Shown one piece after another: positions 12,030-29,200 of a stretch of DNA of 40,769 nt (position 1 is the stretch's first letter; each line of letters begins with the position of its first letter). Where the stretch lies: NCBI GenBank assembly GCA_903906305.1, contig CAIVJR010000009.1, positions 100,687 to 141,455 of the forward strand, read 5' to 3'. The notes under the pieces were generated by a model, which searched no databases, was not told the DNA's origin, and saw nothing but the letters and a program-made list of their open reading frames with translations. Source of the DNA: an uncultured bacterium. Its GTDB lineage: Bacteria > Patescibacteriota > Dojkabacteria > SC72. The translations under genes and the position numbers were made by a program.

Positions 12030-12102
12030 AAGGTGTGTCTGGGGGTGTAGTAATGTTAAATCGCATAAAAGCGAATATCTTTATCCCCTCAGACACAACC
12101 TT
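12030..12102 (-). other. Cassette A 3' compound stem-loop
   Basis: An outer stem (AAGGTGTGTCTGGGGG with the complementary arm ending CAGACACAACCTT) encloses an inner hairpin TCGC-ATAAAA-GCGA (12061-12074). It is followed at 12106-12114 by CCTATTTCT. The same arrangement occurs after the small ORFs of cassettes B and C. No U-tract follows on either strand, so it is not a plain terminator. Confidence 0.65.
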
Positions 12103-12126
12103 TCACCTATTTCTTTGTTTCATTTG

Positions 12127-12288
12127 CTACACAACATTATTTAGGAATGGCTCAAAATAGAGCTTCCCTTGCGGAAGAACTGATGTCCCAGGCTGGCCTG
12201 AGGCTTTTGAAGCTGTAACAATAAGAATTGCTGCTAATACCAATAAGACAATAATAATTACCCAAAGCACTTTCTTTTTTCGAAACAT
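12127..12288 (-). CDS. Small single-span membrane peptide, cassette A (53 aa)
   Basis: The start at 12288 is fixed by a strong AAGGAGGAA Shine-Dalgarno 4-5 bases upstream; a longer frame starting at 12366 runs through the leader inverted repeat and is not credible. The peptide has a basic start (MFRKKK), one hydrophobic helix (about residues 8-28) and a polar tail ending FEPFLNNVV. It has no recognised family. It is flanked by the same leader and 3' elements as the small ORFs at 19144 and 23876, although the peptide sequences differ. It could be a type I toxin-like peptide or a secreted/membrane signal. Expression probably comes from its own promoter at 12440. Confidence 0.75.
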   Translation of the reverse strand: MFRKKKVLWVIIIVLLVLAAILIVTASKASGQPGTSVLPQGKLYFEPFLNNVV

Positions 12289-12308
12289 GATTTCCTCCTT
12301 CTGGTTTA

Positions 12309-12356
12309 GTAAAACCTCAAAATTGTTAACGATTGTTAAAAACTTAGAGGTTTTAC
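12309..12356 (-). repeat. Cassette A leader inverted repeat
   Basis: Perfect 10-bp arms GTAAAACCTC / GAGGTTTTAC enclose a second palindrome, GTTAACGATTGTTAA, giving a nested hairpin or cruciform. It lies between the promoter and the Shine-Dalgarno of the small gene. The equivalents in cassettes B and C keep the form but use different arm sequences. Confidence 0.75.
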
Positions 12357-12431
12357 ATAAGCTCAAAAAAGAAGAAGATCACCGAAATAGGCTTTTAAAA
12401 GAACAATATAGGCTTATTCAACCTATAGTAT

Positions 12432-12440
12432 ATTATAACA
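12432..12440 (-). promoter_or_regulatory. Extended -10 promoter of cassette A
   Basis: The minus strand reads TGTTATAATATACTATAGG, an exact TGnTATAAT extended -10. The stretch TATAATATACTATAGGTT is shared with the cassettes at 19473 and 24259. It sits just past the map stop codon. No convincing -35 is visible. Confidence 0.72.
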
Positions 12441-12454
12441 TATTTAGGATAAAA

Positions 12455-13219
12455 TTACGCAACAACCCCCCAATCTAGGGTATTTGTGAGGATTTCAGGC
12501 TTATTCTTTCTAACAATCACCATATATTCAAACATAACGCTATTTCCACCATGTTCGGTATGTACTGACCAACCATCCTCATCTGTATATATATGACCAG
12601 TATCATCAACCACCTGACATTCAACGCACACAACCATACCATCAACTAGAAGATCACCTGTACCTGGTTTCCCAAAGGCAGGGATATCAGGATATTCATG
12701 CATAGATTTACCAATACCATGACCTACATACATCTTAATAATATTGAAACCATTATCCTTAGCTGTTTTCTCCATTACATAACCAAGATCACCAGTTCGA
12801 TTACCAACCACAGCCTTAGCCATAGCATTCTCAACTGCGGCTCTCCCAGCCTCTAAAAGCTTCGCATTTTGTTTAGAAGGTGTTCCTATGCTCCAAGTCC
12901 AACAATGGTCAGTAAAATATCCTTTATATGTAATTCCGGTATCAATTGAGACAAGGTCTCCTTTTTTCAAAGGAACATCTTTTGGAATACCATGTACAGC
13001 CACATCATTAACGGAAATACAAAGATTATTTTGATAGTTATCTACTGTTGGAAAATTTGGTTTTACACCATATTCTTTACAAAGTTCACCCATGAGTTTA
13101 TCTAATTCAAGTGGTGTAACTCCTTCTTTTACATTCTTTCCCAGTTCTGACAAAATTTCAACAGAAATTTCTGCTGCCTCGCGAATCATTAATTCATCTT
13201 TTGGGTTCTTTATATTCAT
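12455..13219 (-). CDS. map: Type I methionine aminopeptidase
   Basis: The enzyme removes the N-terminal methionine from nascent proteins. Metal ligands can be followed in order: VHGIP (His), SIDTG (Asp), FTDHCWTW (Asp), GHGIGKSMHE (His), VECQ (Glu, in the place of the common IEP) and FEYMVIV (Glu). From the 13219 start (MNIKNPKDELMIREAAEI) the protein is 254 aa, the normal type I length. A frame opening at 13357 adds 46 residues without homology that overlap a folded RNA element, so I reject it. The VECQ and SVMFEY variations differ from the textbook E. coli enzyme. Confidence 0.93.
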   Translation of the reverse strand: MNIKNPKDELMIREAAEISVEILSELGKNVKEGVTPLELDKLMGELCKEYGVKPNFPTVDNYQNNLCISVNDVAVHGIPKDVPLKKGDLVSIDTGITYKGYFTDHCWTWSIGTPSKQNAKLLEAGRAAVENAMAKAVVGNRTGDLGYVMEKTAKDNGFNIIKMYVGHGIGKSMHEYPDIPAFGKPGTGDLLVDGMVVCVECQVVDDTGHIYTDEDGWSVHTEHGGNSVMFEYMVIVRKNKPEILTNTLDWGVVA

Positions 13220-13278
13220 ATGGCCATTATACACGCCTAGGAAAGAACATGGAACTGACGAGTAAGGGATTTGAAGAT

Positions 13279-13374
13279 TGTAGGTTGTCGGACTTGCACC
13301 GCTTAAAGATGAGTCAACATCGCATGCTACACAAGGTAGCAAGGGGAGCTTCTCCACCTCCCAACCAACCTACA
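13279..13374 (-). ncRNA. Unassigned folded element, tRNA-like five-helix leader upstream of map
   Basis: On the minus strand a closing stem TGTAGGTTG / CAACCTACA (9 bp) encloses four hairpins: GGGAG..CTCCC, TGCTA-CCTTGTG-TAGCA, GATG-TTGACT-CATC, and CGG-TGCAAGT-CCG. The order resembles a class II tRNA (D, anticodon, variable and T arms). However, the putative anticodon loop lacks U33 and the T loop lacks TTC, so it is not a functional tRNA as read. It could be a leader regulatory RNA of map or a decayed tRNA. The same stems also form on the + strand. Structure was inferred by eye. Confidence 0.5.
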
Positions 13375-13420
13375 TAACAATAGCTAGTGTCTTTATTAAG
13401 TTTCTATTTTCTACTAACAA

Positions 13421-13439
13421 TTGTCAATCTAATTGACAA
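13421..13439. promoter_or_regulatory. Palindrome upstream of the radical SAM gene
   Basis: TTGTCAAT-cta-ATTGACAA is a perfect 8-bp inverted repeat with a 3-base spacer, about 20 bases before a candidate -35 box. The symmetry and position suggest a repressor or activator site for the RiPP maturase gene. Confidence 0.5.
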
Positions 13440-13459
13440 GTATCGTTAGTCTTATAGTG

Positions 13460-13488
13460 TTTACTTCTGTCTAGATAAGTATTAAAAT
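13460..13488 (+). promoter_or_regulatory. Candidate promoter of the radical SAM gene
   Basis: TTTACT (13460-13465) and TAAAAT (13483-13488) are separated by 17 bases. An AAGGAG Shine-Dalgarno lies at about 13524-13531, ahead of the ATG at 13540. Confidence 0.45.
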
Positions 13489-13539
13489 AGACTGTTGTGT
13501 CGCTCTTTTCAAACAAAATATTATAAGGAGTAAAAACCG

Positions 13540-14838
13540 ATGGGCAACCTACTGTGGAAACAGATTCATCCAAATATCTTTTTTGTTTATGTAGATGGAA
13601 TTGGTGTTGTGTATGCCCCACTTCTTGGCAAGTTTTTTTCTGTGCCAAAAGAAGCTATGGGAATTGTTTGGGATTATTTAAATTCAGGAAAGCCTGAAAC
13701 ACATGAATTACATCAACACCTAATATCGGAAGGTTTCTTTGAAGAAGTTGAAATGCCTCGTATAGCGAAAGAAGGACCGTTCAATAGCAGAGAAGTTACA
13801 CTTTCAGTAACCTCCGCATGTAATTTACGGTGTATCTATTGTTATGCGAATGCAGGAATAAACTTCTGTGATCTCCCCTGGGTACTTATAGAGAAATCAA
13901 TTCAACAATTGTACGTATACGCTAATGAGCGTAATGATACCGATGTTGAACTTAGTTTCCATGGGACTGGAGAAACGCTTGTAAGATGGCAAGTGATGGT
14001 TAAGGCTGTAAACTACGCCTTACAACTCTTGCCAGAAGGCTGGACTATTCATTTCTCGTTAGTTACAAACGGGACTTTAATAGACGATGAAAAAGCACAG
14101 TTTCTAAAGAAGTACGGCTTCTCTGTAGTTCTATCAATGGATGGAATTGAAGAGATTCAAAATATTCTTCGTCCAAAAGCAGATGGAACTGGTTCTTTTG
14201 ATGATGTGGTGAAAGGAATGAAAGCATTAGTAAAAAATGATGTTTTCTTTGCCGTGCGAACCACAGTTACTGGCCTGAATCAAGATACCATTCTGGATTT
14301 TCTTGAACTCTGTGCCACTAATGGATGCAGGGAGATTAGTGCTGCACCTTTCTCTGCTACTGGTAGAGGGCAAGATGGTGTTGATGATGTTGATCCAGAT
14401 ATCTTCGTAAAAAATTATCTTCTCGCTAAGAAACGTGCTAGAGAGCTAGGAATGATTTTTAAAACGCCTTCAGATTGCTTAGATAACGCAAGTGTCCGTT
14501 ATTGTAATGCAGATGGAGAGTCATTCGCTCTTATGCCAGAAGGAATTATCTCGTGCTGTACCCGCGTTACAAGAAAGAATGACCCTCTTGTAGATCTTTT
14601 TGTCATTGGGCATATAACCGAAGAAGGTGTGGAGATTAATCAATCGAAGGTTGAAAAACTTAAGACTCTAAACCTTCACAATTATCAGGAGTGTCAAGAA
14701 TGTTTCGTTAAGTACACCTGTTCTGGTGGATGTCACCATACCAGATTTTTAAACGGAAATCATCAGCCGGCTTCTTACTGTGAGATAATTCGTGCTGTAG
14801 TATGGGACACACTGAAAAATGCTGCCTTTGAAGCATAA
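13540..14838 (+). CDS. RiPP-modifying radical SAM/SPASM maturase
   Basis: The 432-aa protein has an N-terminal PqqD/RRE-like region (about residues 1-70, FFVYVDGIGVVYAPLLGKFF...) of the type that binds precursor leader peptides. The radical SAM motif is C94-x3-C98-x2-C101 (SACNLRCIYCY). A C-terminal SPASM domain binds two further iron-sulfur clusters: C322-x12-G-x4-C340, then C385-x2-C388-x5-C394-x3-C398 and C414, an exact match to the SPASM spacing. Such enzymes form thioether or C-C crosslinks in ribosomal peptides. A 29-aa Cys-containing ORF starts 60 bases downstream and is the likely substrate. A good AAGGAG Shine-Dalgarno and seemingly higher G+C than neighbouring genes suggest acquisition by transfer. 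Confidence 0.88.
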   Translation: MGNLLWKQIHPNIFFVYVDGIGVVYAPLLGKFFSVPKEAMGIVWDYLNSGKPETHELHQHLISEGFFEEVEMPRIAKEGPFNSREVTLSVTSACNLRCIYCYANAGINFCDLPWVLIEKSIQQLYVYANERNDTDVELSFHGTGETLVRWQVMVKAVNYALQLLPEGWTIHFSLVTNGTLIDDEKAQFLKKYGFSVVLSMDGIEEIQNILRPKADGTGSFDDVVKGMKALVKNDVFFAVRTTVTGLNQDTILDFLELCATNGCREISAAPFSATGRGQDGVDDVDPDIFVKNYLLAKKRARELGMIFKTPSDCLDNASVRYCNADGESFALMPEGIISCCTRVTRKNDPLVDLFVIGHITEEGVEINQSKVEKLKTLNLHNYQECQECFVKYTCSGGCHHTRFLNGNHQPASYCEIIRAVVWDTLKNAAFEA

Positions 14839-14840
14839 TC

Positions 14841-14869
14841 TTGCAGTTTCTAGGAGATATCCTTATAAT
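14841..14869 (+). promoter_or_regulatory. Sigma-70-type promoter of the RiPP precursor
   Basis: TTGCAG (14841-14846), a 17-base spacer and TATAAT (14864-14869) form a near-consensus promoter. It begins 2 bases after the maturase stop and lies 29 bases before the precursor ATG. A dedicated strong promoter suits a peptide made in excess over its maturase. Confidence 0.75.
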
Positions 14870-14898
14870 AAAGAATTCTATGAGAAAGGAGAATCGCC

Positions 14899-14988
14899 AT
14901 GTTCGGTAAAACTGTAACTATAAAAGTTCAGACGAACAGCCGCGGGTGCAAGGACGACAAGCAGTGTTCGTGCCGAAGTAGTGCATGA
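14899..14988 (+). CDS. Probable RiPP precursor peptide (29 aa)
   Basis: A GAAAGGAG Shine-Dalgarno 8 bases upstream and a near-consensus promoter precede this ORF. The peptide begins MFGKTVTIKVQTNSRG and ends CKDDKQCSCRSSA, with cysteines at 17, 23 and 25. This suggests an amphipathic leader of about 14 residues followed by a Cys-containing core after SRG. Cysteines adjacent to Asp/Lys/Ser acceptors fit sactipeptide- or ranthipeptide-type thioether formation by the upstream SPASM enzyme. The second half is about 58 % G+C, well above the surroundings. I do not recognise the peptide family. No dedicated transporter lies nearby; the convergent S41 peptidase is the only protease in reach. Confidence 0.75.
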   Translation: MFGKTVTIKVQTNSRGCKDDKQCSCRSSA

Positions 14989-15009
14989 AAGTCGTTTTTG
15001 TTGCCAGCT

Positions 15010-15057
15010 CTGGAGATGATTGCATTATTTGCAAACAATATTGTCAATCATCTCCAG
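15010..15057. repeat. Perfect 13-bp inverted repeat after the RiPP precursor
   Basis: CTGGAGATGATTG (15010-15022) and CAATCATCTCCAG (15045-15057) are perfectly complementary around a 22-base loop. The repeat sits between the precursor and the convergent peptidase gene. No T-tract follows on either strand, so its role as a bidirectional terminator is possible but unproved. Confidence 0.7.
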
Positions 15058-15066
15058 CACGTTCCA

Positions 15067-16206
15067 CTATAAAAGCTTTGATAGATATTCAATTTGTGTG
15101 TCTTTCCCATTCAATAAATCCGACATTAATGTATTCACTGCATAGGTAGGTCTGAATGATTCACTTAGTTTATATCCCTTTGATCTAAATATTTTCGAAG
15201 ATGAAAATACTTTTAATTTTGAATTGGGTAAAATAAAAGATTGATTTTCTCCATAATGTGTAGGATTCCCATGTGGTATTTCACCTACTGAAATTACATT
15301 TTTGATCCTTGATAATTCTAGAACATTAAGAATTGCAGATGAGTAGGTATCTGCACTTGTTAGGATGATAATCTTATATTGACCTTCTGATCTTTTTAAA
15401 AATCTAATCAATGGCTTTAATACATCAGAATCTCCTCCCTTATTATTTCTGAAATCAATAATTAAGTTTTTTAATTGAGATTTATCAAATTGCTCAGTGA
15501 TTTGGGTGATTTTTAGGTCTTTTCTTTCCTCGCAACTATTGTATTGAAAATAGAAAGCTTTAATTTGTGGTAATACGGTAACCCAGTATTTATCTCTTTC
15601 CAATAATGTTACAGACGTTTGTTTTACCTTCTCCTTTAAAGTAATCGTCTCTGTATTGTAATCTTGTGGACGAATTGCTACAAAAACACGAGCATCTTCC
15701 TTTTCTAATTGTAGTTTTATATTTTCATTCTTTTTTATGCCTAAGTATTCAAGTATTGATGGCTCTACAATTTTTGATGAGAGATAATATCTTGTAGAGA
15801 TCTCATTTTCTTGCGGAATGAATGATTTTATTCTCAATTCTAATTCATTCATATTGTAATCATTTATGCCAAGCAGTTTTGATCCTAAATAATTAGATAA
15901 GCATTCCGAGGATTGAGTTAAGTAATAACCATTATTCAGGTATTCAAACTTAAACATAAAATTCTCTTTTCCTAGAACATCATCTGAGAGACCTAGATAT
16001 GTATGACCATCATTTAATACTGCTAGACAAGTCATGAGAGCTAATCCAAGGTCTTTTATGTTACTAGCATTTACAGTATTGCTTTCTAGTAAAGCAGTAA
16101 ACTTCTTTTTTGTAATATACTTATATGGATTTGGATGAATTTGTTCTAGCTTCTTATGGAGTTCTTTTATATCTTGTTGTATTGCTACTGTATTTAAGGT
16201 TTTCAT
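15067..16206 (-). CDS. S41-family (tail-specific protease-like) peptidase
   Basis: From the ATG at 16206 the protein is 379 aa; an in-frame TTG at 16233 would add nine residues and overlap the helicase stop. The C-terminal half carries the S41 core: LIIDFRNNKGGDSDVL (the strand-loop before the active site), TSADTYSSAILNVLEL with the candidate catalytic Ser in YSSA, and GEIPHGNPTHYGE. An N-terminal helical region contains LNDGHTYLGL, also typical of the family. No signal peptide and no clear PDZ domain are visible, unlike exported CtpA-type enzymes, so it may act in the cytoplasm. It converges on the RiPP precursor; a role in peptide processing is only a positional guess. Confidence 0.75.
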   Translation of the reverse strand: MKTLNTVAIQQDIKELHKKLEQIHPNPYKYITKKKFTALLESNTVNASNIKDLGLALMTCLAVLNDGHTYLGLSDDVLGKENFMFKFEYLNNGYYLTQSSECLSNYLGSKLLGINDYNMNELELRIKSFIPQENEISTRYYLSSKIVEPSILEYLGIKKNENIKLQLEKEDARVFVAIRPQDYNTETITLKEKVKQTSVTLLERDKYWVTVLPQIKAFYFQYNSCEERKDLKITQITEQFDKSQLKNLIIDFRNNKGGDSDVLKPLIRFLKRSEGQYKIIILTSADTYSSAILNVLELSRIKNVISVGEIPHGNPTHYGENQSFILPNSKLKVFSSSKIFRSKGYKLSESFRPTYAVNTLMSDLLNGKDTQIEYLSKLL

Positions 16207-16225
16207 CTCAGTATTATACCTCGAA

Positions 16226-17386
16226 CTACCCAATAATATATAGCTCTTCTTCCGCTCTTGTTACAGCGGTATACAACCATCTTCTCCAGTTATCATCACT
16301 CATTTGTGGAAATCTTTCTTCAAACAGTATAACCCGTTTAGCTTGACTGCCCTGGGCCTTGTGTACCGTTAAAGCATATCCAAAATCAAACAAATTCATA
16401 TTCTCAGGTAGATATTGAGTATTTGTTTCAGCCTTTCCAAATTGATCAAGGCTTACAGGCCCTACAAACACCTCATCCTCATCATCTAAGGATATCTCTG
16501 CATCGTAGAACTTACCTACATGGTTCTTAGATATGGAAAGTATCGTGCCTGTCATACCATTAAAAATTCCCATACTAGGATTATTTTTAAGACATATTAC
16601 CCTGTCACCATACTGTGGCTCTGGAGATTCAAATTCTAGCAATTGTCTAATCCCTTTATTCAAATCTACTCGTGTTCGATTGTATCCCGTTAGTACCATT
16701 GTCTGGTCATCAAACGATTCTAGCTTGTCAGAAAGAAACTCTTGAGTGTTTTCATTGTTCTTTGAAAGCTTTTTAACAGTATTAGAAAATTCTAACTGAG
16801 GAATATGCCCATATCTACGAGCTATTTCGGAAACCTTAATGATCGGATTATCCCTTTCTTGTCTAAATATCTCCTCGAGCTTAATATTTGGTCTTTCCAT
16901 CAAATTGAAAGTACCTTCTACAGGTGGAAGTTGACCATGATCCCCAGAAGCAAGAATAGGGACACCATAGCTTAAAAGATCGTCCCAGATCTGTCTGGTA
17001 ACCATAGAGGCCTCATCTACAATGATTAAATCATATGTAAATTCTTCCTGAAGCTTCTTTTCCCATCCAATGATATTGTCTTTTTCATCACATATGGCTT
17101 TGTAGATAAGACCATGAATAGTACCTATGTAATCAGATTTAAAGATTGATTTTGCGTCTCTAAGCTTGTGCTGCAAGACTCTCGCAGCTTTTCCAGTATA
17201 ACTACAGTATGCAATCTTAATGTTCTTTTTTTCTTTGTGAAGATGTTGTCCTAGATATCCAAGCATTGTAGTTTTACCAGTTCCTGCATAACCGCCAAAG
17301 GTTAAGTACTGTACTGGATGCTCCTTGTACCATTGTAATATGTCATCAATGATAGATTTTTGTTTTTCTGAGAATGCTATGTCCAC
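16226..17386 (-). CDS. RecD-like / AAA_30 superfamily 1 helicase
   Basis: The 386-aa protein has Walker A GGYAGTGKTTML (about residues 31-42), Walker B IIVDEASMV, motif III GDHGQLPPVEG, an SH3-like insert (YGDRVICLKNNPSMGIFNGMTGTI) and the C-terminal UvrD_C-type motif LTVHKAQGSQAKRV...YTAVTRAEEELYIIG. It is a compact RecD2/Dda-like 5'-3' helicase without the long N-terminal domains of RecD2. It is divergent from the thioredoxin-CcdA gene by 36 bases. Confidence 0.9.
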   Translation of the reverse strand: MDIAFSEKQKSIIDDILQWYKEHPVQYLTFGGYAGTGKTTMLGYLGQHLHKEKKNIKIAYCSYTGKAARVLQHKLRDAKSIFKSDYIGTIHGLIYKAICDEKDNIIGWEKKLQEEFTYDLIIVDEASMVTRQIWDDLLSYGVPILASGDHGQLPPVEGTFNLMERPNIKLEEIFRQERDNPIIKVSEIARRYGHIPQLEFSNTVKKLSKNNENTQEFLSDKLESFDDQTMVLTGYNRTRVDLNKGIRQLLEFESPEPQYGDRVICLKNNPSMGIFNGMTGTILSISKNHVGKFYDAEISLDDEDEVFVGPVSLDQFGKAETNTQYLPENMNLFDFGYALTVHKAQGSQAKRVILFEERFPQMSDDNWRRWLYTAVTRAEEELYIIG

Positions 17387-17422
17387 TTGAGATGTTAAGA
17401 GATAATTGATAGATTAAAAGAC

Positions 17423-18883
17423 ATGTCTAATGTATATAGTCTACTAAAAAAGAGCAAGTTTATACAAATAATCCTAACATTAGGTTTATTTTTAATGGTA
17501 CCTAGCTTTGTAAGCGCACAAGAGACTACAACAATAACTCCTGTTACAGAACTAAAAGCTTTTACATACTTTACAGGTATTGGATGTCCTCATTGCGCAA
17601 AGGTATCTCCTACAATACACAAAAGTGTTAATACCCAGGATGGTTTGTTAATGATTGAGTATGAGATATATCAGGAATCCTCTAATGCTAGAACATTGTA
17701 CAGTTACAATTCAAAATATGGGTACGAGTTGGCTATTCCGTTGATTTTGTATGCTCCTAAGGATTTTGATCAAGGGGACACACCAATTCTTAATAACTTT
17801 GATACACAAATAGCCAAGCTTCAAACCAATACCATTGAGTTAGCTAACAAAACGGTTAGTTGGGACGACTTAAACCTTAATGATTTTGAAGGAAAAGTGA
17901 AATTGTTAACAAAAGACAGGATGGCGATGCAGAGCACTACAAAGGATTTAACTAGGGAGCAGATTGTATTAATAAAAGAGTTCTTAGTTACCAAAGATTT
18001 AGATGTGTACGTTCAAACTTTACAAGGAACAAAAGTTAAGGATATGACTATTGAGTACCCAGGAGGTAATGAAATATATTCCCATGGAGTTAATATTGGC
18101 TCATGGACTTTACATTGGAGAGGGAATAGTGATGCACAGATAACAGATGGGAAAACGACAAATACAGATTCAGTTTCTTCAGATTCAGGTAGTATCTCGT
18201 GGGGCAAAATATCGGCACTTGCACTTACAGATTCAATTAATCCTTGTGCTTTGTCTGTGCTTTTAATGATGTTGATAGCCATAGCTACATACCATCCTAA
18301 GGATAGAAAACAGATATTGTGGGCAGGGTTGGCCTTCGTAGCAGCCGTATTCATTACGTACTTCATATATGGATTACTAATTGTTAAGGCTTTCGAGGTA
18401 GTTCAGGGGATTAGTAGTATTAAATTGTATTTGTATAAGGGGCTAGGGGCAGGTGCAATTATTTTGGGTTTGCTTGAGATTAAGGATTTCTTCTTCTACA
18501 AGCCTGGATCTATTGGTACTGAGATGCCTATGATGTTTAGACCCAAGGTTCAGCAGATTCTTGCTAAAGTTACTTCTCCTTTAGGAGCATTTGGATTGGG
18601 TATGTTTGTTACTTTATTCTTACTGCCTTGTACCATCGGTCCATACATTATATTGGGTGGTATGCTTTCATATGGTGAGTTTGCAGGTGCATTGCCATAT
18701 CTTACTGTTTACAATTTGATATTTGTACTTCCAATGGTAGTTATAATCCTACTGGTATTCTTTGGTTCTAAGAGTATTAAACAGGTTACAGAGTGGAGGG
18801 AGAAGAATGTTAAGGTTATGCATTTAATAATTGGCATAATATTCATTCTTTTAGGCTTATCTATGTTCTTTGGGTTGTTTTAA
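17423..18883 (+). CDS. Thioredoxin-like / CcdA (DsbD-type) membrane fusion
   Basis: The 486-aa protein starts with a hydrophobic signal/anchor (about residues 13-32, ending FVSAQ). An extracytoplasmic thioredoxin-like segment follows with C55-P-H-C58 (FTGIGCPHCAKVSP). After a Ser/Asp-rich linker come six or so membrane helices of the CcdA/DsbD transporter type, with the paired cysteines in SINPCALSVLL and FLLPCTIGPYI. It would carry electrons across the membrane to reduce extracytoplasmic disulfides. This fits the many Cys-rich secreted proteins encoded immediately downstream, and trxB nearby could supply the electrons. Confidence 0.86.
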   Translation: MSNVYSLLKKSKFIQIILTLGLFLMVPSFVSAQETTTITPVTELKAFTYFTGIGCPHCAKVSPTIHKSVNTQDGLLMIEYEIYQESSNARTLYSYNSKYGYELAIPLILYAPKDFDQGDTPILNNFDTQIAKLQTNTIELANKTVSWDDLNLNDFEGKVKLLTKDRMAMQSTTKDLTREQIVLIKEFLVTKDLDVYVQTLQGTKVKDMTIEYPGGNEIYSHGVNIGSWTLHWRGNSDAQITDGKTTNTDSVSSDSGSISWGKISALALTDSINPCALSVLLMMLIAIATYHPKDRKQILWAGLAFVAAVFITYFIYGLLIVKAFEVVQGISSIKLYLYKGLGAGAIILGLLEIKDFFFYKPGSIGTEMPMMFRPKVQQILAKVTSPLGAFGLGMFVTLFLLPCTIGPYIILGGMLSYGEFAGALPYLTVYNLIFVLPMVVIILLVFFGSKSIKQVTEWREKNVKVMHLIIGIIFILLGLSMFFGLF

Positions 18884-18885
18884 AT

Positions 18886-18905
18886 AACCAAATATTTCAA
18901 TGGTT
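18886..18905 (+). terminator. Weak terminator-like hairpin
   Basis: AACCA (18886-18890) and TGGTT (18901-18905) pair around a 10-base AT loop and are followed by TGTTATAT. It lies 3 bases after the CcdA-fusion stop. The stem is short, so confidence is low. Confidence 0.3.
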
Positions 18906-18945
18906 TGTTATATGAGTTGCCTATAATAGGGGTTATACTAACGAT

Positions 18946-19053
18946 ATGGGTATAAATACTAATGATTTATATCAATATTTATTAGTAATATAGTGATTTT
19001 GTATAGATATTTATCATGATATGTAATATATTCATGATTTCCGATTATATCGG
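18946..19053. repeat. 108-bp perfect direct repeat, copy 1
   Basis: This AT-rich block is identical to 23679-23786 over 108 bases. It contains three successive inverted repeats: ACTAAT..ATTAGT, ATCATGA..TCATGAT and CCGAT-TAT-ATCGG. It abuts the compound stem-loop of cassette B, so it may be the distal part of that transcript or a promoter/structured RNA read on the + strand. Confidence 0.9.
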
Positions 19054-19064
19054 AGGGGGTTTTC

Positions 19065-19117
19065 GAGGAAAGTCTGGGGTATGTCATAAAGACAATATAT
19101 ATTTCCCAGACTTCCTC
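19065..19117 (-). other. Cassette B 3' compound stem-loop
   Basis: GAGGAAAGTCTGGGG pairs with CCCAGACTTCCTC (one bulged base) around an inner hairpin TGTC-ATAAA-GACA (19082-19094). CCTATTTCT follows at 19122-19130. The fold is shared with cassettes A and C, although the loops differ. Confidence 0.68.
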
Positions 19118-19143
19118 TAGACCTATTTCTTATTTTTGCAATC

Positions 19144-19302
19144 TTACGACTGCACATTGTAGTTCTTTGTCGGTTCCGTAATATAAAACGGGTTTGCATT
19201 GCTACATTGCACGAAAGTTTTTTTAGTAACGTAAGCTACTGAAAGTGCTACGATGCAAACAAACATGAGTGACATTAATACAATTACCAATGATTTTTTC
19301 AT
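19144..19302 (-). CDS. Small Hok-sized membrane peptide, cassette B (52 aa)
   Basis: This 52-codon ORF begins MKKSLVIVLMSLMFVCIVAL behind a GGGAAAGGAGAAGTAAC Shine-Dalgarno region. It has one hydrophobic helix (about residues 4-25) followed by VAYVTKKTFVQCSNANPF and a polar tail ending KNYNVQS. Size, a single helix and a basic turn followed by Cys recall the Hok family (E. coli Hok is also 52 aa, with a TRKSLC segment after its helix), but the resemblance is architectural, not proven homology. Flanking leader and 3' elements are shared with cassettes A and C. It is transcribed away from the surface-protein module that starts at 19597. Confidence 0.75.
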   Translation of the reverse strand: MKKSLVIVLMSLMFVCIVALSVAYVTKKTFVQCSNANPFYITEPTKNYNVQS

Positions 19303-19347
19303 TGTTACTTCTCCTTTCCCATTAGGGAATATAACTAATATAGTGTG

Positions 19348-19404
19348 TTACACGAACATTAGAACCTTTAAACAAAAAGATTAAAAGTTTTGAAGTTCGT
19401 GTAA
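19348..19404 (-). repeat. Cassette B leader inverted repeat
   Basis: Perfect 10-bp arms TTACACGAAC / GTTCGTGTAA enclose an A/T-rich 37-base interior. The repeat lies between the promoter and the Shine-Dalgarno of the small gene. A second small palindrome, TTCCC-ATTA-GGGAA, sits between this repeat and the start codon, and cassette C has its counterpart. Confidence 0.75.
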
Positions 19405-19472
19405 AACAGGGGGAGAATATTTAGAAATAGATCTTTTAAAGAGCAGTATAAGTTATTTCTAACCTATAGTAT

Positions 19473-19481
19473 ATTATACCA
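19473..19481 (-). promoter_or_regulatory. Extended -10 promoter of cassette B
   Basis: The minus strand reads TGGTATAATATACTATAGG, with the extended -10 TGGTATAAT. TGTATA lies 17 bases upstream as a weak -35. The downstream leader (TTAGAAATAACTTATACTG...) is nearly identical to that of cassette C. Confidence 0.75.
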
Positions 19482-19558
19482 CACTCTGTAATTATTATAC
19501 AATAATCCCTAATAGAAGTCTTTTATATAGGTACTGTATTTCTTCAAATACTTTGGTA

Positions 19559-19564
19559 TATACT
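19559..19564 (+). promoter_or_regulatory. Promoter-like motif of surface module 1
   Basis: TATACTAAATATATCTAACCTGCCTA lies 33 bases before the start codon. TATACT is a good -10, and the same TATACTAAAT...CTGC block precedes module 2 (24369) and the exonuclease-module 3 unit (28404), so it is a shared promoter. No Shine-Dalgarno follows. Confidence 0.55.
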
Positions 19565-19596
19565 AAATATATCTAACCTGCCTAACATAGGATACT

Positions 19597-20808
19597 ATGC
19601 AAGTAGTTATGTCTAAAAAGAAAAAATACATCCTTCTACTATTAGTAATATTGGTATTATCTGCTGTCACTGCAGGAATATATTTATTTGTTAATCCAAA
19701 GATAAATGGTTCTACATCATATACAGTAGATAAATACTCAGATGTTACTAATTGGTGCGATACTAACCGGGAGGGAGGGAAATTAAATGTTGATTGCAAG
19801 GCTCTGTTAATCAATATTGATTCGAACAGTTGTTTCGAGGTACAGGTAATCACAAAGGACAAAGAGTTAAAGGATTTAACTGTATGTGAGAAGAATGGTA
19901 CTCTTTCATATACCAATGATGTGTTAGGATACAAAAAGCTCATGCCCGTAGATATGATATTTACATATTCGAAGGAAGGAATACTAAGGGATTACTCCTT
20001 TGCCAATGTTTCCTTCTCCAAAATTGATGGGCAATACATACAAAACGTAGTCGAGAACGATATGGATCAATTGCTACTATCAAAGGCTTCTAATCTTTCA
20101 ATAAAAAATAGTTTTGATGTATGTCCTACATCTTACGAACTTAGAAATTATCTATTTGAGGATATGTTAAGTGAATACTCCCAATTTTATTCTCTTAATA
20201 TTCTTAAGGAAGATTTGTATCATGCGTATTCTTTCAATAGCTTGGAGAATTATCAGATAACTCTATTATTTGCATGTGATTCAAGTAGCAAGCTACAGTA
20301 TAATTCGGTATGTAATTTAAGTAATATAAGTAAGTCATTATCTATTGAAAAAAACGTTCCCCGTATTTTTGTTACAGAAGATAATATAAACTGGAATAAC
20401 AATCTTGATACCCTAGATATCGCTTATTTAAAAGAAATTTCGTTGATCTATGACAATTTATTTCTCAAGAACGATGCAACTACGAAATATCTATCAAAGA
20501 TATCTTCTCTGATAAATGCAGTAAATATTAAAGAAAATCTTGGGGAATCAACATTATGCGCACTATATCCTATATATCAGACACTAGCAAAAACGGATAA
20601 TCAATACATAGCGGATCAACAATTTATTGAAAATTTTATCCAAATGAATATAAAAAAAATCACATCTCCAATATGTGGAAAAATCCTTCAAAATGAAGAG
20701 ACTGATGCACGGGGCCTTTACTTGAAGCTATCTGCAACAAAATTAAATACAGGAATTTTAAATATATATAATCAATGCTCTAATTTAAGAATTTTAGCTA
20801 ATGAATAA
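19597..20808 (+). CDS. Membrane-anchored surface protein of module 1 (unknown family)
   Basis: The 403-aa protein has a short basic N-terminus (SKKKKY), one membrane helix (about residues 11-31) and a long extracytoplasmic part. I do not recognise a family. The first ~160 residues are clearly homologous to the proteins at 24405 and 29201 (YTVDKYSDVTNWCDTN, LINIDSNSCFEV, TNDVLGYKKLMPVDM), whereas the C-terminal half diverges and keeps only scattered Cys and LLFACDS-type motifs. An alternative ATG four codons downstream gives MSKKKK, matching the start of the third copy. Its stop overlaps the next ORF by 8 bases (ATGAATAA), so the two are translationally coupled and probably work together. Confidence 0.85.
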   Translation: MQVVMSKKKKYILLLLVILVLSAVTAGIYLFVNPKINGSTSYTVDKYSDVTNWCDTNREGGKLNVDCKALLINIDSNSCFEVQVITKDKELKDLTVCEKNGTLSYTNDVLGYKKLMPVDMIFTYSKEGILRDYSFANVSFSKIDGQYIQNVVENDMDQLLLSKASNLSIKNSFDVCPTSYELRNYLFEDMLSEYSQFYSLNILKEDLYHAYSFNSLENYQITLLFACDSSSKLQYNSVCNLSNISKSLSIEKNVPRIFVTEDNINWNNNLDTLDIAYLKEISLIYDNLFLKNDATTKYLSKISSLINAVNIKENLGESTLCALYPIYQTLAKTDNQYIADQQFIENFIQMNIKKITSPICGKILQNEETDARGLYLKLSATKLNTGILNIYNQCSNLRILANE

Positions 20809-23647
20809 GTTAATACTCAAAACTTCATTTTTTTTACTCCTTTGTTTTTTATTAGTGAATGCTTCTAAAACAGCAATCTTTGCTCAAACTCCCTTTGTTG
20901 AAGTTTCGAGAGAATGCTTAAATAGGACAGATGGGGGGTGTAATTGCTCATCTGGCACGAGAATAACATGTTGCAATCCATCCAAGATTTGCTATGAGAG
21001 AGAAAGTGAAACTCATGATCCAGGAGATGATGTGGTAACACAAGGTCAAAATTTCTCACCTAAAGTAATTTTATGCCAAGCCGTAATACCAGGAAATTAT
21101 ATCCTTTCATATTGTGATGAAGTTAATACCTGCTATGATGCTCATTCTGTTCCTTGTTCTTGTTGTGTCCCCAATTGTGATAACGGTGGTTGTGAAGTAC
21201 CAGCTTGTCCTTCTGGTAGCCAAGAATTAGCTAACGGTTGTTCAGTATCCTCTGTTCAATCATGTTCCTACAGTAATAGTTGTAATACGGGATCCTGTGG
21301 TGGAGGCTCCCGCACCTGTTACTACTCTGAAACCAATCTTTCCTTTGTTCAAGGAAATGGTAGCACCTCAGGCCCTACCACTGTAAGGATCATTGTTGAC
21401 GAGAAACCATATGAACTCTCCACTAACCCTGCAGAACCAACCCACATCAAACTTCCAGCCCTAGGTTCTTCTAACGTTCAGATAACTACACCAACCTTCA
21501 CAGCTCCAGTGACCTCAAGAGGAGCTAATTACTACTATCAAGCCAATAACTACGGTAACAATAACGAATGGGAGACATGGACAACATGCTCTGGAATAGC
21601 AGGAGAAGACTTCTGTACTACCATGCCTAATCCAAACAATACTCAAACCCTTGTACCAACATCAAAAACCATAAATCAAGTATTTAAAGAAGGCGCTACA
21701 GGAGAAATATCTGCAATGTATGCAACCACAGACAAATGTACAGATACATACAAATACTCGTTGCCAATCAAAGGTTACTACGTCGTAGACTATATCCCTG
21801 TGCCACCAGAGCCATGCACCCCAGGAGCTCCTACATGCCCATGGATACCTGAAATAACGACAAATACTACAGAAAGAGGCTGTGCATCCCTTACATACTC
21901 TGGTACTGAGATTAACAATGAACTGCATATAAATGCAGCAGTAACAGATACAGACAATTTAAATGAAATACAAGCATTTACTCTTTGGTTTTCGAAAGAC
22001 ACAAATATCCCTTCGCTCGGAACAACATCCGCCTCATATACGGGAAGCAATACCAATGACTTAGGAATAATGATTAAAAAGAACGGAAGCGATTGGGACA
22101 ATCCAAACATCTACGCAACCAACTTAGATCAAACCTGGGGGCAAATATCTCTCACAGACGGCATTGGATATATAAACATAGCAGGAACAAACATAATAGA
22201 AATATATGACATAGCTGTAACGCAGGATACAAAAATTACCTTTGATTACAAAATAAAGTTCTTAAACAACATCTCAAATCTCTCAGGTATATACAATGTC
22301 TACGGAGGATCCTTAGATACCCATATGATCAATGGAAATATCTTAGATCAAAGTTACTTCTACAAGTTCTTTGATTGGGGAATAGATTTAATCAATCCAA
22401 CAGTAGAAGAGATCACTCAACAGATTCGAGATCCACAGAATACGTATATGATTTGGAGTAATGCAGATGTAACAAGTGGAATAGGGAGAACTGTAATTAA
22501 TGCATACAGATTGGGAGGAGTATCTACAGACCCAGAAGGAGTTAAACTCTATCTTCCCGCAGCTTACACCACTCTAAAGGGAGCCATCACACTTGATCCA
22601 AACACTCAGATACCTGCAGATCCTGAAATAGGGCTGTACAACGATACAAATGCTTGGATATTTAATACAAATACAGGAGAAACTGACCTTGTTAACGTTG
22701 GAAATAACGAAAGTGGAAAGATTGCCTTGTATATTACTGCATATGATGTTGCTTGTAATACCAATGGTATAACTGATGAAATAGATCTTAACCCATGGTT
22801 TGCTACAAGAGGGGCATCCGTATACTCTCAAGGAAATATATCTTCTACTGCAAAGGATGTGGCAGGGTTACCATACCTTGATGGTGTATTTAATTCAATA
22901 ACAGGAATGAATTCGAGCCTAATAGACATAGGTACCGAACTACTCGCCACTAGAAGTATGTCTATTTCTAATCTTCTACACTCCGGGAGTGGGGCAGTTA
23001 TGGCTACAGATATTGAAGACTCAAATAACACAAAGGATGTTTGGTACAATAAATTAATAAGAAAATTTGGAGAGTACAAACCCGAATTAACTTCTTTTTT
23101 GAAAGACGCAGGCGATAACAGTGTCTCTGATAGCTGTATTGGTTCGAGGTGCTACATGCAATCAACAGAAAACATATCAATCCCCGCGGGATACACATGT
23201 GACAGACCAACACTCTTTGTTTCTGAAAAGAATATACATATATCTCCCAACATATTAAGTGATACTGGATTACTCTCAGGGTGTATATTCCTAGCTAAGA
23301 ACAATATATATATTGATGAGGGAACATTTAAATCGACTGGTACTAAAGTCATGTATGATTACATAGAAGGATATATGATTGCAGACAACCAGGTAATATT
23401 CTCTGTAGCAGATGAATCACAGGTTCTTAGAGACGGAGTAGAGATCTTTGGAGGTGTTGTTGCCTTAGGAACCAATCCAACAAGTAGTAACACAGGAATA
23501 TCAATCCAAAGAAATCTAAGACTATACAGTCAAATTAATCCAACTGTAGTACTAACATACGACAACAAATACTCAAGTATATCTACGATCTTCTTTGGTA
23601 CTGAGTACAGTCTCTACAAACAAGAAGTGGGATTTAAGACTTTCTAG
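20801..23647 (+). CDS. Large Cys-rich secreted surface protein of module 1
   Basis: The 948-aa protein has a signal peptide (about residues 1-29, ending FAQ). A cysteine-dense N-terminal region follows (about 39-174; CNCSSGTRITCC, CSCCVPNCDNGGCEVPACP). A middle region contains ATSRG/VTSRGANYYYQANNYG and PCTPGAPTCPW, and a repeated beta-type module ends DLNPWFATRGASVYS. A conserved C-terminal ~175-residue domain begins IPAGYTCD and runs through GCIFLAKNNIYI to LYSQINPTVVLTYDNKYSS. The last domain is nearly invariant between the three paralogues (25601, 30466), while the Cys-rich N-terminus varies most. No enzyme motif is visible. A pilus-associated adhesin or matrix protein is an inference from export, Cys content and the pilin-like gene downstream. 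Confidence 0.85.
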   Translation: MNKLILKTSFFLLLCFLLVNASKTAIFAQTPFVEVSRECLNRTDGGCNCSSGTRITCCNPSKICYERESETHDPGDDVVTQGQNFSPKVILCQAVIPGNYILSYCDEVNTCYDAHSVPCSCCVPNCDNGGCEVPACPSGSQELANGCSVSSVQSCSYSNSCNTGSCGGGSRTCYYSETNLSFVQGNGSTSGPTTVRIIVDEKPYELSTNPAEPTHIKLPALGSSNVQITTPTFTAPVTSRGANYYYQANNYGNNNEWETWTTCSGIAGEDFCTTMPNPNNTQTLVPTSKTINQVFKEGATGEISAMYATTDKCTDTYKYSLPIKGYYVVDYIPVPPEPCTPGAPTCPWIPEITTNTTERGCASLTYSGTEINNELHINAAVTDTDNLNEIQAFTLWFSKDTNIPSLGTTSASYTGSNTNDLGIMIKKNGSDWDNPNIYATNLDQTWGQISLTDGIGYINIAGTNIIEIYDIAVTQDTKITFDYKIKFLNNISNLSGIYNVYGGSLDTHMINGNILDQSYFYKFFDWGIDLINPTVEEITQQIRDPQNTYMIWSNADVTSGIGRTVINAYRLGGVSTDPEGVKLYLPAAYTTLKGAITLDPNTQIPADPEIGLYNDTNAWIFNTNTGETDLVNVGNNESGKIALYITAYDVACNTNGITDEIDLNPWFATRGASVYSQGNISSTAKDVAGLPYLDGVFNSITGMNSSLIDIGTELLATRSMSISNLLHSGSGAVMATDIEDSNNTKDVWYNKLIRKFGEYKPELTSFLKDAGDNSVSDSCIGSRCYMQSTENISIPAGYTCDRPTLFVSEKNIHISPNILSDTGLLSGCIFLAKNNIYIDEGTFKSTGTKVMYDYIEGYMIADNQVIFSVADESQVLRDGVEIFGGVVALGTNPTSSNTGISIQRNLRLYSQINPTVVLTYDNKYSSISTIFFGTEYSLYKQEVGFKTF

Positions 23648-23678
23648 TAATTCCTATAGCGAGTATAGTACCAATTAA

Positions 23679-23786
23679 ATGGGTATAAATACTAATGATT
23701 TATATCAATATTTATTAGTAATATAGTGATTTTGTATAGATATTTATCATGATATGTAATATATTCATGATTTCCGATTATATCGG
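23679..23786. repeat. 108-bp perfect direct repeat, copy 2
   Basis: Identical to 18946-19053 at all 108 positions, including its three inverted repeats. It precedes the stem-loop of cassette C exactly as copy 1 precedes that of cassette B, which dates the duplication (or a conversion) of the cassette-module unit as recent here. Confidence 0.9.
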
Positions 23787-23797
23787 TATGGGTGTTC

Positions 23798-23872
23798 GAG
23801 GAGTGTCTGGGGGTTGGAATAATGTATTGATGCTTGAAAGCAACAAATATAGTATCTCCCAGACACATCCTC
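23798..23872 (-). other. Cassette C 3' compound stem-loop
   Basis: GAGGAGTGTCTGGGGG pairs with CTCCCAGACACATCCTC (one bulge) around an inner hairpin GCTT-GA-AAGC (23832-23841). CCTATTTCT follows at 23875-23883 and on the minus strand overlaps the stop codon of the small ORF. Confidence 0.68.
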
Positions 23873-23875
23873 ATC

Positions 23876-24088
23876 CTATTTCTCATTCTGAAATTGATCC
23901 CGACAATACGTTTCCTCAAGTGCTGGGCTTCCACGTTTTGGATTATGATCCTTGAATTCTCGGCAGCCATTGCTGTCACAAAAACGAGGTCCATCACAAA
24001 GAGGTAAGGGAACTGCGGGTGGAGTGCAAGCACTCACAGCAAATACAAAGAAAAGCAAAACCAAGGCAACCCTTACTAAGTTTCTCAT
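23876..24088 (-). CDS. Small Cys-containing lipoprotein, cassette C (70 aa)
   Basis: The ORF starts MRNLVRVALVLLFFVFAVSA-C behind a GGGAAGAGGAGAAATT Shine-Dalgarno region. Residues 5-20 are a signal peptide and AVSA-C21 fits a lipobox, so the product is probably a lipoprotein. The mature part has four more cysteines (31, 37, 42, 62), a Pro-rich start and the charged end RDQFQNEK. No family is recognised. The coding sequence is unrelated to the peptides of cassettes A and B, yet the leader, promoter and 3' elements are conserved. The stop codon TAG is part of the conserved AGAAATAGG motif. Confidence 0.75.
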   Translation of the reverse strand: MRNLVRVALVLLFFVFAVSACTPPAVPLPLCDGPRFCDSNGCREFKDHNPKRGSPALEETYCRDQFQNEK

Positions 24089-24136
24089 CAGAATTTCTCC
24101 TCTTCCCTTTTGGGAATATATAAATTTTATATTGTG

Positions 24137-24193
24137 TTACACGAACCTCAGAACATTTAAACAAAATTGTTAAAAGCTTTGAAGTTCGTGCAA
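24137..24193 (-). repeat. Cassette C leader inverted repeat
   Basis: TTACACGAAC (24137-24146) and GTTCGTGCAA (24184-24193) pair with a single mismatch. The interior contains TTTAAACAAAATTGTTAAAA, a second A/T palindrome. TTCCC-TTTT-GGGAA lies between it and the small gene. Together with the promoter and hairpin below it fills the 316-base gene-free stretch 24089-24404. Confidence 0.72.
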
Positions 24194-24258
24194 ACACAGG
24201 AGATTTATAGAAATAGGTCTTTTAAAGAACAGTATAAGTTATTTCTAACCTATAGTAT

Positions 24259-24267
24259 ATTATACCA
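24259..24267 (-). promoter_or_regulatory. Extended -10 promoter of cassette C
   Basis: The minus strand reads TGGTATAATATACTATAGG, identical over this core to cassette B, with TGTATA 17 bases upstream. The transcript would open with TTAGAAATAACTTATACTG. Confidence 0.75.
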
Positions 24268-24303
24268 CACTCTCTACTTATTATACAGTAATTCTAAATC
24301 AAA

Positions 24304-24325
24304 GCCATTTCAACCATCAAATGGC
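24304..24325. repeat. Short hairpin GCCATTT/AAATGGC
   Basis: A perfect 7-bp stem with an 8-base loop lies between the cassette C promoter and the module 2 promoter. The corresponding position of unit B lacks it, so it is a small insertion. On the minus strand TTTGATTT follows, a poor terminator tail. Confidence 0.5.
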
Positions 24326-24368
24326 ATGCTACTTATATAGGTACTGTATTTCTGCTAATACTTTGGTA

Positions 24369-24374
24369 TATACT
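24369..24374 (+). promoter_or_regulatory. Promoter-like motif of surface module 2
   Basis: TATACTAAATGTATCTAATCTGCCTA lies 31 bases before the start codon and matches the module 1 leader almost base for base, including TATATAGGTACTGTATTTCT upstream. The conservation over non-coding sequence supports a real promoter. Confidence 0.55.
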
Positions 24375-24404
24375 AAATGTATCTAATCTGCCTAAATAGA
24401 TACT

Positions 24405-25598: not shown

Positions 25599-25600
25599 TT

Positions 25601-28363: not shown

Positions 28364-28403
28364 AAAGAGGAAAATATTATGTCATTCTTCACATAGTTAA
28401 TGA

Positions 28404-28409
28404 TATACT
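28404..28409 (+). promoter_or_regulatory. Promoter-like motif of the exonuclease-module 3 unit
   Basis: GATATACTAAATATATATTTAATCTGC lies 31 bases before the exonuclease ATG and matches the TATACTAAAT...AATCTGC leaders of modules 1 and 2. This suggests that module 3 is transcribed together with the exonuclease. Confidence 0.5.
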
Positions 28410-28439
28410 AAATATATATTTAATCTGCTCAATATTTAC

Positions 28440-29195: not shown

Positions 29196-29200
29196 ATACA

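Follow-up and report, generated by a model that had tools for sequence, protein, structure and literature searches.

At the rRNA operons of E. coli, the role of boxA and the Nus factors is debated: they may prevent Rho termination, or they may hold the 5' strand of the precursor until its 3' strand has been made (PMC4807359, PMC10250234). It has been proposed that boxA, once bound by NusB-S10, remains tethered to RNA polymerase, with the leader strand at hand when the trailer emerges, and bases inserted after boxA lower 30S activity (PMC10250234, PMC4807359). BoxA also occurs in the mRNA leaders of suhB and other gamma-proteobacterial genes, where the Nus complex represses translation and is considered to keep the ribosome from the Shine-Dalgarno (SD) sequence, for which looping of the RNA between boxA and polymerase has been proposed, and where a toxin gene is among the targets (PMC5725501). 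Type I toxin loci such as Hok/Sok and AapA/IsoA have an untranslatable primary transcript as their hallmark, the SD being buried in the full-length RNA (PMC6733600). Here we compare with these systems three cassettes, each built around a short open reading frame (ORF), in a 40,769-nucleotide (nt) stretch of DNA (the window; contig CAIVJR010000009.1 of assembly GCA_903906305.1) from an uncultured bacterium of the Dojkabacteria.

The cassettes, labeled c1 (12030-12440), c2 (19065-19481) and c3 (23798-24267), all lie on the minus strand of the window, which belongs to a 787 kb, 10-contig, 99% complete assembly. We think it rather likely that they represent a class of mRNA laid out like the pre-16S rRNA of their own lineage, in which Nus factors would be recruited, the 5' and 3' ends would close over the ORF and translation would be delayed. 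At the level of sequence the architecture of boxA and closing helix, which we call the clasp, is well established and, by analogy with E. coli, a Nus-factor mechanism is likely. The broader proposal is that an undescribed class of mRNA relies on the rRNA production line (boxA, Nus factors and a leader-trailer clasp), which would yield closed messages, translated with delay, for exported and membrane proteins that are rapidly exchanged, from several loci per genome across this Patescibacteria family; here we see the chances as evenly balanced. To our knowledge, no mRNA combines boxA, an end-to-end clasp and an exchanged protein, and a literature search that covered few subscription journals found no account of boxA-clasp mRNAs or of RNA regulation in Dojkabacteria.

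Architecture of the cassettes

A sequence-only reading of the window had placed three small-peptide cassettes at these coordinates, and we find them there. Every element it described is present in c1-c3 (the promoter TGnTATAATATACTATAGG, the leader motif GYTCTTT(T)AAAAG, a nested inverted repeat, a strong SD and a compound 3' stem-loop), and the ORFs of 53, 52 and 70 amino acids (aa) fall inside its range of 52-70 aa. A 5' hairpin is likewise present in all three cassettes, between promoter and leader motif. Not recognized in that reading were boxA, the pairing of the leader with the 3' flank across the ORF, the pairing of the SD with a pyrimidine tract, and the parallel with pre-rRNA. The cassette transcripts fold better than all 100 dinucleotide shuffles of each (z of -4.0 for c1, -7.6 for c2 and -4.9 for c3). 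Their elements are listed below, with the basis of the assignment, where given, after the semicolon.

12432..12440 (-), c1 extended -10 promoter TGTTATAAT; sequence, the same element heading other cassettes
12410..12424 (-), c1 5'-terminal hairpin H1 (AGGTTGAATAAGCCT); sequence and folding, with an equivalent AGG...CCT hairpin in relatives
12393..12404 (-), c1 boxA-like element GTTCTTTTAAAA, one T more than the consensus; sequence, consensus from PMC5725501
12384..12392 (-), c1 clasp P1 5' strand GCCTATTTC; folding, duplex and covariation tests
12371..12377 (-), c1 anti-SD tract CTTCTTC; folding, unpaired-probability test
12309..12356 (-), c1 leader hairpin P3; folding, covariation
12294..12298 (-), c1 SD GGAGG; sequence, predicted paired
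12127..12288 (-), c1 ORF, 53-aa single-span exported peptide of no known family
12105..12113 (-), c1 clasp P1 3' strand GAAATAGGT; duplex and covariation tests
12031..12101 (-), c1 compound 3' stem-loop; sequence, folding
19473..19481 (-), c2 extended -10 promoter TGGTATAAT; sequence
19450..19465 (-), c2 5'-terminal hairpin H1; sequence, folding
19434..19444 (-), c2 boxA GCTCTTTAAAA; fits GYTCTTTAANA
19423..19434 (-), c2 clasp P1 5' strand AGATCTATTTCT; folding, duplex and covariation tests
19409..19417 (-), c2 anti-SD tract TTCTCCCCC; folding, unpaired-probability test
19350..19402 (-), c2 leader hairpin P3 (ACACGAAC...GTTCGTGT); folding, covariation
19311..19315 (-), c2 SD AGGAG; sequence, unpaired-probability test
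19144..19302 (-), c2 ORF, 52-aa single-span exported peptide with a sub-threshold HOK_GEF match (E=0.11)
19119..19130 (-), c2 clasp P1 3' strand AGAAATAGGTCT; duplex and covariation tests
19065..19117 (-), c2 compound 3' stem-loop; sequence, folding
24259..24267 (-), c3 extended -10 promoter TGGTATAAT; sequence
24236..24251 (-), c3 5'-terminal hairpin H1; sequence, folding
24220..24230 (-), c3 boxA GTTCTTTAAAA; fits GYTCTTTAANA
24209..24217 (-), c3 clasp P1 5' strand CCTATTTCT; folding, duplex and covariation tests
24199..24203 (-), c3 anti-SD tract TCTCC; folding, unpaired-probability test
24139..24191 (-), c3 leader hairpin P3; folding, covariation
24097..24100 (-), c3 SD GGAG; sequence, unpaired-probability test
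23876..24088 (-), c3 ORF, 70-aa lipoprotein
23875..23883 (-), c3 clasp P1 3' strand AGAAATAGG, overlapping the stop codon; duplex and covariation tests
23798..23872 (-), c3 compound 3' stem-loop; sequence, folding

The clasp (P1) has its 5' strand directly after boxA, or overlapping the last A's of boxA, and its 3' strand at or just after the stop codon, which it often overlaps, so that leader and 3' flank pair with the entire ORF between them. Among 19 complete cassettes, the duplex energy of cognate strands averaged -18.3 kcal/mol versus -13.6 kcal/mol for non-cognate strands, and none of 50,000 random re-pairings reached the cognate mean. In an alignment of the clasp strands (A8), 89% of the cells were paired and 8 of 11 pairs had changed on both sides; none of 500 shuffles reached that percentage or the covariation score, and register shifts gave 23-48%. 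The strands were aligned in register by hand, which favors the named structure; the comparison of cognate with non-cognate strands is independent of register. In an offset scan, complementarity to downstream sequence rose above that of shuffles solely in the interval from +6 to +12, counted from the boxA start. There the two common clasp types had mean z values of 2.8 and 2.5, and the remaining sites, a group that mixes true sites with chance motifs, a mean of about 1.1; z was near zero at other offsets.

The pyrimidine tract that follows the clasp 5' strand (TCTCC and variants) is predicted to pair with the SD, the mean unpaired probability of which was 0.047 versus 0.262 when the leader upstream of the SD was shuffled (Wilcoxon p 4e-6 over 18 cassettes, which are not independent of each other). 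A strong SD had been called rare in this genome and, since an SD-like motif lies within 20 nt of the start in just 4 of the 28 other window genes, that statement holds. Between the pyrimidine tract and the SD stands P3, a long hairpin in which 8 of 10 predicted pairs covary, and an inner hairpin is retained within the compound 3' stem-loop of most copies. Covariation or controls back each of three elements: the 5'-3' helix, the P3 hairpin and the pairing that buries the SD. The sequence-only reading, which saw in the cassettes a dedicated expression system, had named an absence of copies in relatives and an absence of covariation as findings that would speak against it; the frame recurs in relatives and its structure covaries, and both results favor that reading.

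BoxA and the pre-16S plan

The boxA elements of c2 (GCTCTTTAAAA) and c3 (GTTCTTTAAAA) are exact fits to the published E. coli consensus GYTCTTTAANA (PMC5725501). In relatives the element reads GCTC(A/T)TTAAAA or GCTCATTAACA. Written generally, the leader motif is GYTC(T/A)TTAAAA, which departs from the consensus in the A found at one position in relatives. As judged from sequence, the decisive comparison is an internal one, with the rRNA leaders of the lineage itself, which carry boxA forms such as AGCTCCTTAAAAG some 160-195 nt before 16S; the genomes with AGCTCCTTAAAAG or a close variant include the same-genus L089, and three genomes have a more divergent form in the rRNA leader. Across the family, TGYTCWTTAAAA was counted 97 times versus 30 for a reversed control pattern. 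The genome encodes NusB (PF01029, E=2e-29) and also Rho and RNase III.

The rRNA operons of the family have, immediately downstream of boxA, a strand (AAAGTTGAAGAGTGACAGGAAG) that pairs with CTTCCTGTCACTTTTTAGCTTT over 20-22 positions, the latter lying in most operons some 25-30 nt past the end of 16S. This helix shows compensatory changes between genomes and starts at the same place after boxA as does the clasp. Since the order of boxA and then helix is shared with these operons, the cassettes appear to follow the pre-16S plan, with an ORF replacing 16S. In both, a hairpin is followed by boxA and then by an adjoining helix strand that closes over the product (PMC10250234, PMC4807359), and the cassette boxA is as in the rRNA operons of the lineage. 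The two differ in what they enclose, which is 16S/23S in the rRNA operon and an ORF of 52-173 aa, with buried SD and exchanged cargo, in the cassettes, and in the length of the helix, which is mostly 9-13 base pairs (bp) in the cassettes versus 20-22 bp in the rRNA operons. The rrn operons have the order boxB-boxA-boxC and are served by a Nus antitermination complex (PMC10250234, PMC4807359). In those of E. coli 18-19 nt lie between boxA and boxC (PMC10250234), whereas the helix strand adjoins boxA in the cassettes. The probable explanation of the conserved frame is that it descends from the rRNA precursor plan or has converged on it.

Neither of the two boxA-bearing systems described above accommodates the cassettes as such. 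An rRNA operon was rejected because the cassettes enclose ORFs and because an Rfam scan of both strands of the window, at a permissive threshold, returned chance matches only, with no rRNA match and none above gathering score. The suhB-type leader shares boxA in an mRNA leader and was rejected on distance, boxA lying at most 50 nt from the start codon in those mRNAs (PMC5725501) and 114-147 nt from the ATG in the cassettes. Moreover, the passages of that report consulted here describe no leader-trailer helix around the ORF, and the targets it names are not exchanged exported proteins (PMC5725501).

Other boxA sites in the family show the same boxA-clasp order with unrelated clasp sequences, around other small, mostly membrane proteins, as follows.

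L140, clasp of about 20 bp, 64-aa protein
L183/L196, clasp of 17-21 bp, secreted protein of about 260 aa
L138, L139 (two in tandem), L141, L144/L145 and L154, further independent clasps
L172, L145 and L173, boxA-clasp sites in this genome beyond c1-c3

This recurrence with different clasp sequences suggests that boxA and clasp act together as one unit, and the presence of one layout on many unrelated short transcripts amounts to a natural experiment. Three loci (L134 in G020, L136 in G027 and L137 in G029) have a second leader type, in which two boxA motifs, GCTCTTTAAAA and GTTCTTTAAAA, are separated by about 100 nt and GCTGGATTGG pairs with CCAATCCAGC to close around a single-span protein of about 150 aa. 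The boxA-clasp transcripts L139, L141, L195, L198, L144 and L145 encode multi-span proteins of about 110 aa; many of them have the clasp GGTTCTACC or a similar one, and several adjoin what appears to be one and the same convergent gene downstream. Many family genomes also contain another recurrent promoter-like motif, TATATTATACTATAGG (e.g., L028, L030, L031 and L047), which in some cases is followed, after about 100 bp, by a second copy resembling TATATTATACTATAAG.

Exchanged cargo and the weighing of explanations

The search for further copies of the frame combined a promoter pattern, synteny with trxB and the sequence model R2, and every locus was then read. The full frame was verified in 19 of the 32 family genomes, or 6 of 12 genera; the raw R2 tally of 11 genera at E<=0.01 includes weak matches that failed on reading, and 6 genera are counted. 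Two more genomes have reduced leaders that lack the clasp (L020, L067). The frame was not found in ten genomes of other families of the order, the match in G033 (E=0.008) covering the promoter part of the R2 model only, and the exact promoter and boxA pattern had no match in viral contigs. The named genomes with exact frame matches belong to Candidatus Dojkabacteria / candidate division WS6 and to other Patescibacteria. Like c1, most copies occupy the interval flanked by the M24 peptidase gene (map) and trxB; in some genomes a further gene stands between the cassette and trxB. In the same-genus genome G001 the site is empty and map runs straight to trxB; the cassette is thus gained and lost as a unit. 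This genome has only three copies of the frame, and relatives have one or a few.

A signal or membrane segment is present in each of the 19 cargo proteins, and every complete cassette keeps it together with the SD and the start codon. Cargo length in the frame is 52-173 aa, and related boxA-clasp transcripts encode proteins of up to about 260 aa; thus the description of the cargo as small peptides suits c1-c3 and is too narrow for the wider set. The cargo falls into fam1 (8 members, mostly 113-131 aa), fam2 (4) and fam3 (2), with c1, c2, c3, L011 and L069 outside these families. Nonsynonymous divergence (dN) of 0.10 against synonymous divergence (dS) of 1.00 between L025 and L026 indicates that the ORFs encode real proteins. 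Pfam and NCBIfam gave no match above cut-off for the cargo, and the c2 peptide had two weak, chance-like matches to plasmids. An AlphaFold2 model of the fam1 lipoprotein L053, built on a two-sequence alignment, has a small beta-rich fold (predicted local distance difference test score of 74.5), for which Foldseek found nothing in the PDB at E<=0.001. The lipoprotein cargo of L120 (G008) carries a perfect tandem QEI repeat after the lipobox, which is likely a length-variable spacer.

Comparison of close relatives indicates that coding sequences have repeatedly been exchanged inside the conserved frame. G023 and G031 are 99% identical in TrxB and 91% identical from promoter to boxA (the 5' frame), and their cargo proteins are unrelated, one a 163-aa fam2 protein and the other a 72-aa two-span protein. 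In G026 and G028, TrxB is 97%, the 5' frame 99% and the 3' frame 97% identical, and the protein 34% identical. Within the window, c2 and c3 are 84-89% identical in their flanks and 19% identical in their proteins (the flanks of c1 and c2 are 73-76% identical), and the 3' flank of c2 is 98% identical to that of L011 around an unrelated peptide. The claims of the sequence-only reading that conserved flanks surround unrelated peptides, and that regulation is conserved around swapped coding sequence, are thereby borne out, the exchange taking place within nearly identical flanks. It probably occurred by recombination in the flanks.

Other explanations must be weighed against the pre-16S-like layout. 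The cassettes may be ordinary paralogous genes, their flanks conserved by site duplication or gene conversion, with no Nus function for boxA or clasp and a structure that does no more than bury the SD and stabilize the mRNA. In favor of this, c2 and c3 represent copies of a single module, SD-burying structured leaders are common and boxA is a weak motif in AT-rich DNA; nevertheless, boxA followed by a clasp is seen again at unrelated loci, with sequences of no relation to these, and in the rRNA operon, and the clasp keeps a fixed distance from boxA, and we consider this explanation unlikely. The cassettes might instead be type I toxin loci, in which a small hydrophobic peptide is encoded by an mRNA made untranslatable by 5'-3' pairing and SD burial and is countered by an antisense antitoxin. 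Folding predicts that the cassettes work like a Hok or AapA message in exactly these two respects, c1 and c2 encode single-span peptides of 52-53 aa, and a boxA-regulated ParE-like toxin is known (PMC5725501). The cargo at orthologous sites, however, consists for the most part of lipoproteins, or else of single-span proteins, that measure 113-173 aa and carry soluble domains; HOK_GEF scores 12.6 bits against c2, for a cut-off of 22, and does not match c1, c3 or other cargo, and a scan confined to promoter consensus found no antisense promoter common to the cassettes. The weak c2 match, the missing shared antisense promoter and the larger lipoprotein cargo of relatives leave a Hok/Sok-type locus unsupported and, as a general account, quite unlikely, and we know of no boxA in Hok/Sok or AapA/IsoA mRNAs. 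A toxin role is conceivable for some of the cargo.

The RNA itself might be the product, a structured regulatory or scaffold RNA with the ORF as a passenger; the elaborate covarying structure and the highly variable ORFs speak for this. Against it, every complete cassette retains an SD, a start codon and a signal or membrane segment, the protein is under purifying selection, with families conserved across genera, and Rfam gave no match; we regard this possibility as very unlikely. Least probable, in our estimation, is a strict exchange locus in which coding sequences are swapped in a programmed manner, from silent donors or by a recombinase, as in antigenic variation. Coding sequences do differ between near-identical genomes inside conserved flanks, and the whole cassette is present or absent at the map-trxB site between G000 and G001, but no recombinase was recognized among the window genes scanned with Pfam, and the copies of the frame in each genome are few.

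Several points weigh against the pre-16S-like reading itself. BoxA is a weak motif in AT-rich genomes, about one third of the 97 matches being expected by chance, and many of the other boxA sites have no clasp. The boxA of c1 has one extra T and may be weaker, the boxA of L069 is altered past the core, and the simplified leaders (L020, L067) stand without boxA or clasp. The assembly has no 16S, and the rRNA boxA was therefore taken from the same-genus L089 and the family. The clasp permutations and shuffles ignore the relatedness of the cassettes. In addition, the clasp of the trxB type, at about 9-13 bp, is below the >17 bp that 30S biogenesis requires in E. coli (PMC10250234) and is probably short for RNase III.

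If the cassettes are nevertheless messages of the pre-16S type, they may work as follows. The strong extended -10 promoter would start transcripts at a high rate, and the first bases would form a hairpin. BoxA would then recruit NusB-S10, as in E. coli, and tie the leader to RNA polymerase, which would resist Rho although the nascent RNA is untranslated, its SD buried and its loop closed. As the clasp 3' strand emerges, it would pair with the 5' strand held nearby, and the closed RNA, with hairpins at both ends, would be a stable and little-translated message that is opened later for translation. Such a frame would be neutral to its cargo, so that exported and membrane proteins could be exchanged within it. 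We infer Nus binding, Rho resistance, stability, the timing of translation, expression and the function of the cargo. If this working is correct, exported proteins would be expressed without co-transcriptional translation in bacteria whose gene regulation is little known. The frame would also mark sites at which exported cargo is replaced more quickly than other parts of the genome, which may guide the search for proteins that mediate contact with hosts, rivals or phages.

Neighboring genes

The location beside surface modules noted in the sequence-only reading applies to c2 and c3 and to their genus, and not to c1, which is sited between map and trxB. c2 and c3 are copies that sit next to large surface-type genes, two of which are present as a duplicated pair (48% and 71% identical). 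The plus strand of the window holds, at 19597-33078, three copies of a two-gene surface-type module encoding proteins of about 400 aa and 870-948 aa, the larger being 58-71% identical in the pairs compared and without a Pfam match; only the first two copies have a cassette (c2 or c3) divergently placed upstream. Beyond c2 and c3, at 19000-19060 and 23735-23795, lie the same small inverted repeats, CCGATATAATCGG and ATCATGAATATATTACATATCATGAT, both of which also follow L011 in a same-genus genome. The trxB match contains an internal stop codon at L076 (G002) and L078 (G021), and the trxB of the window is intact.

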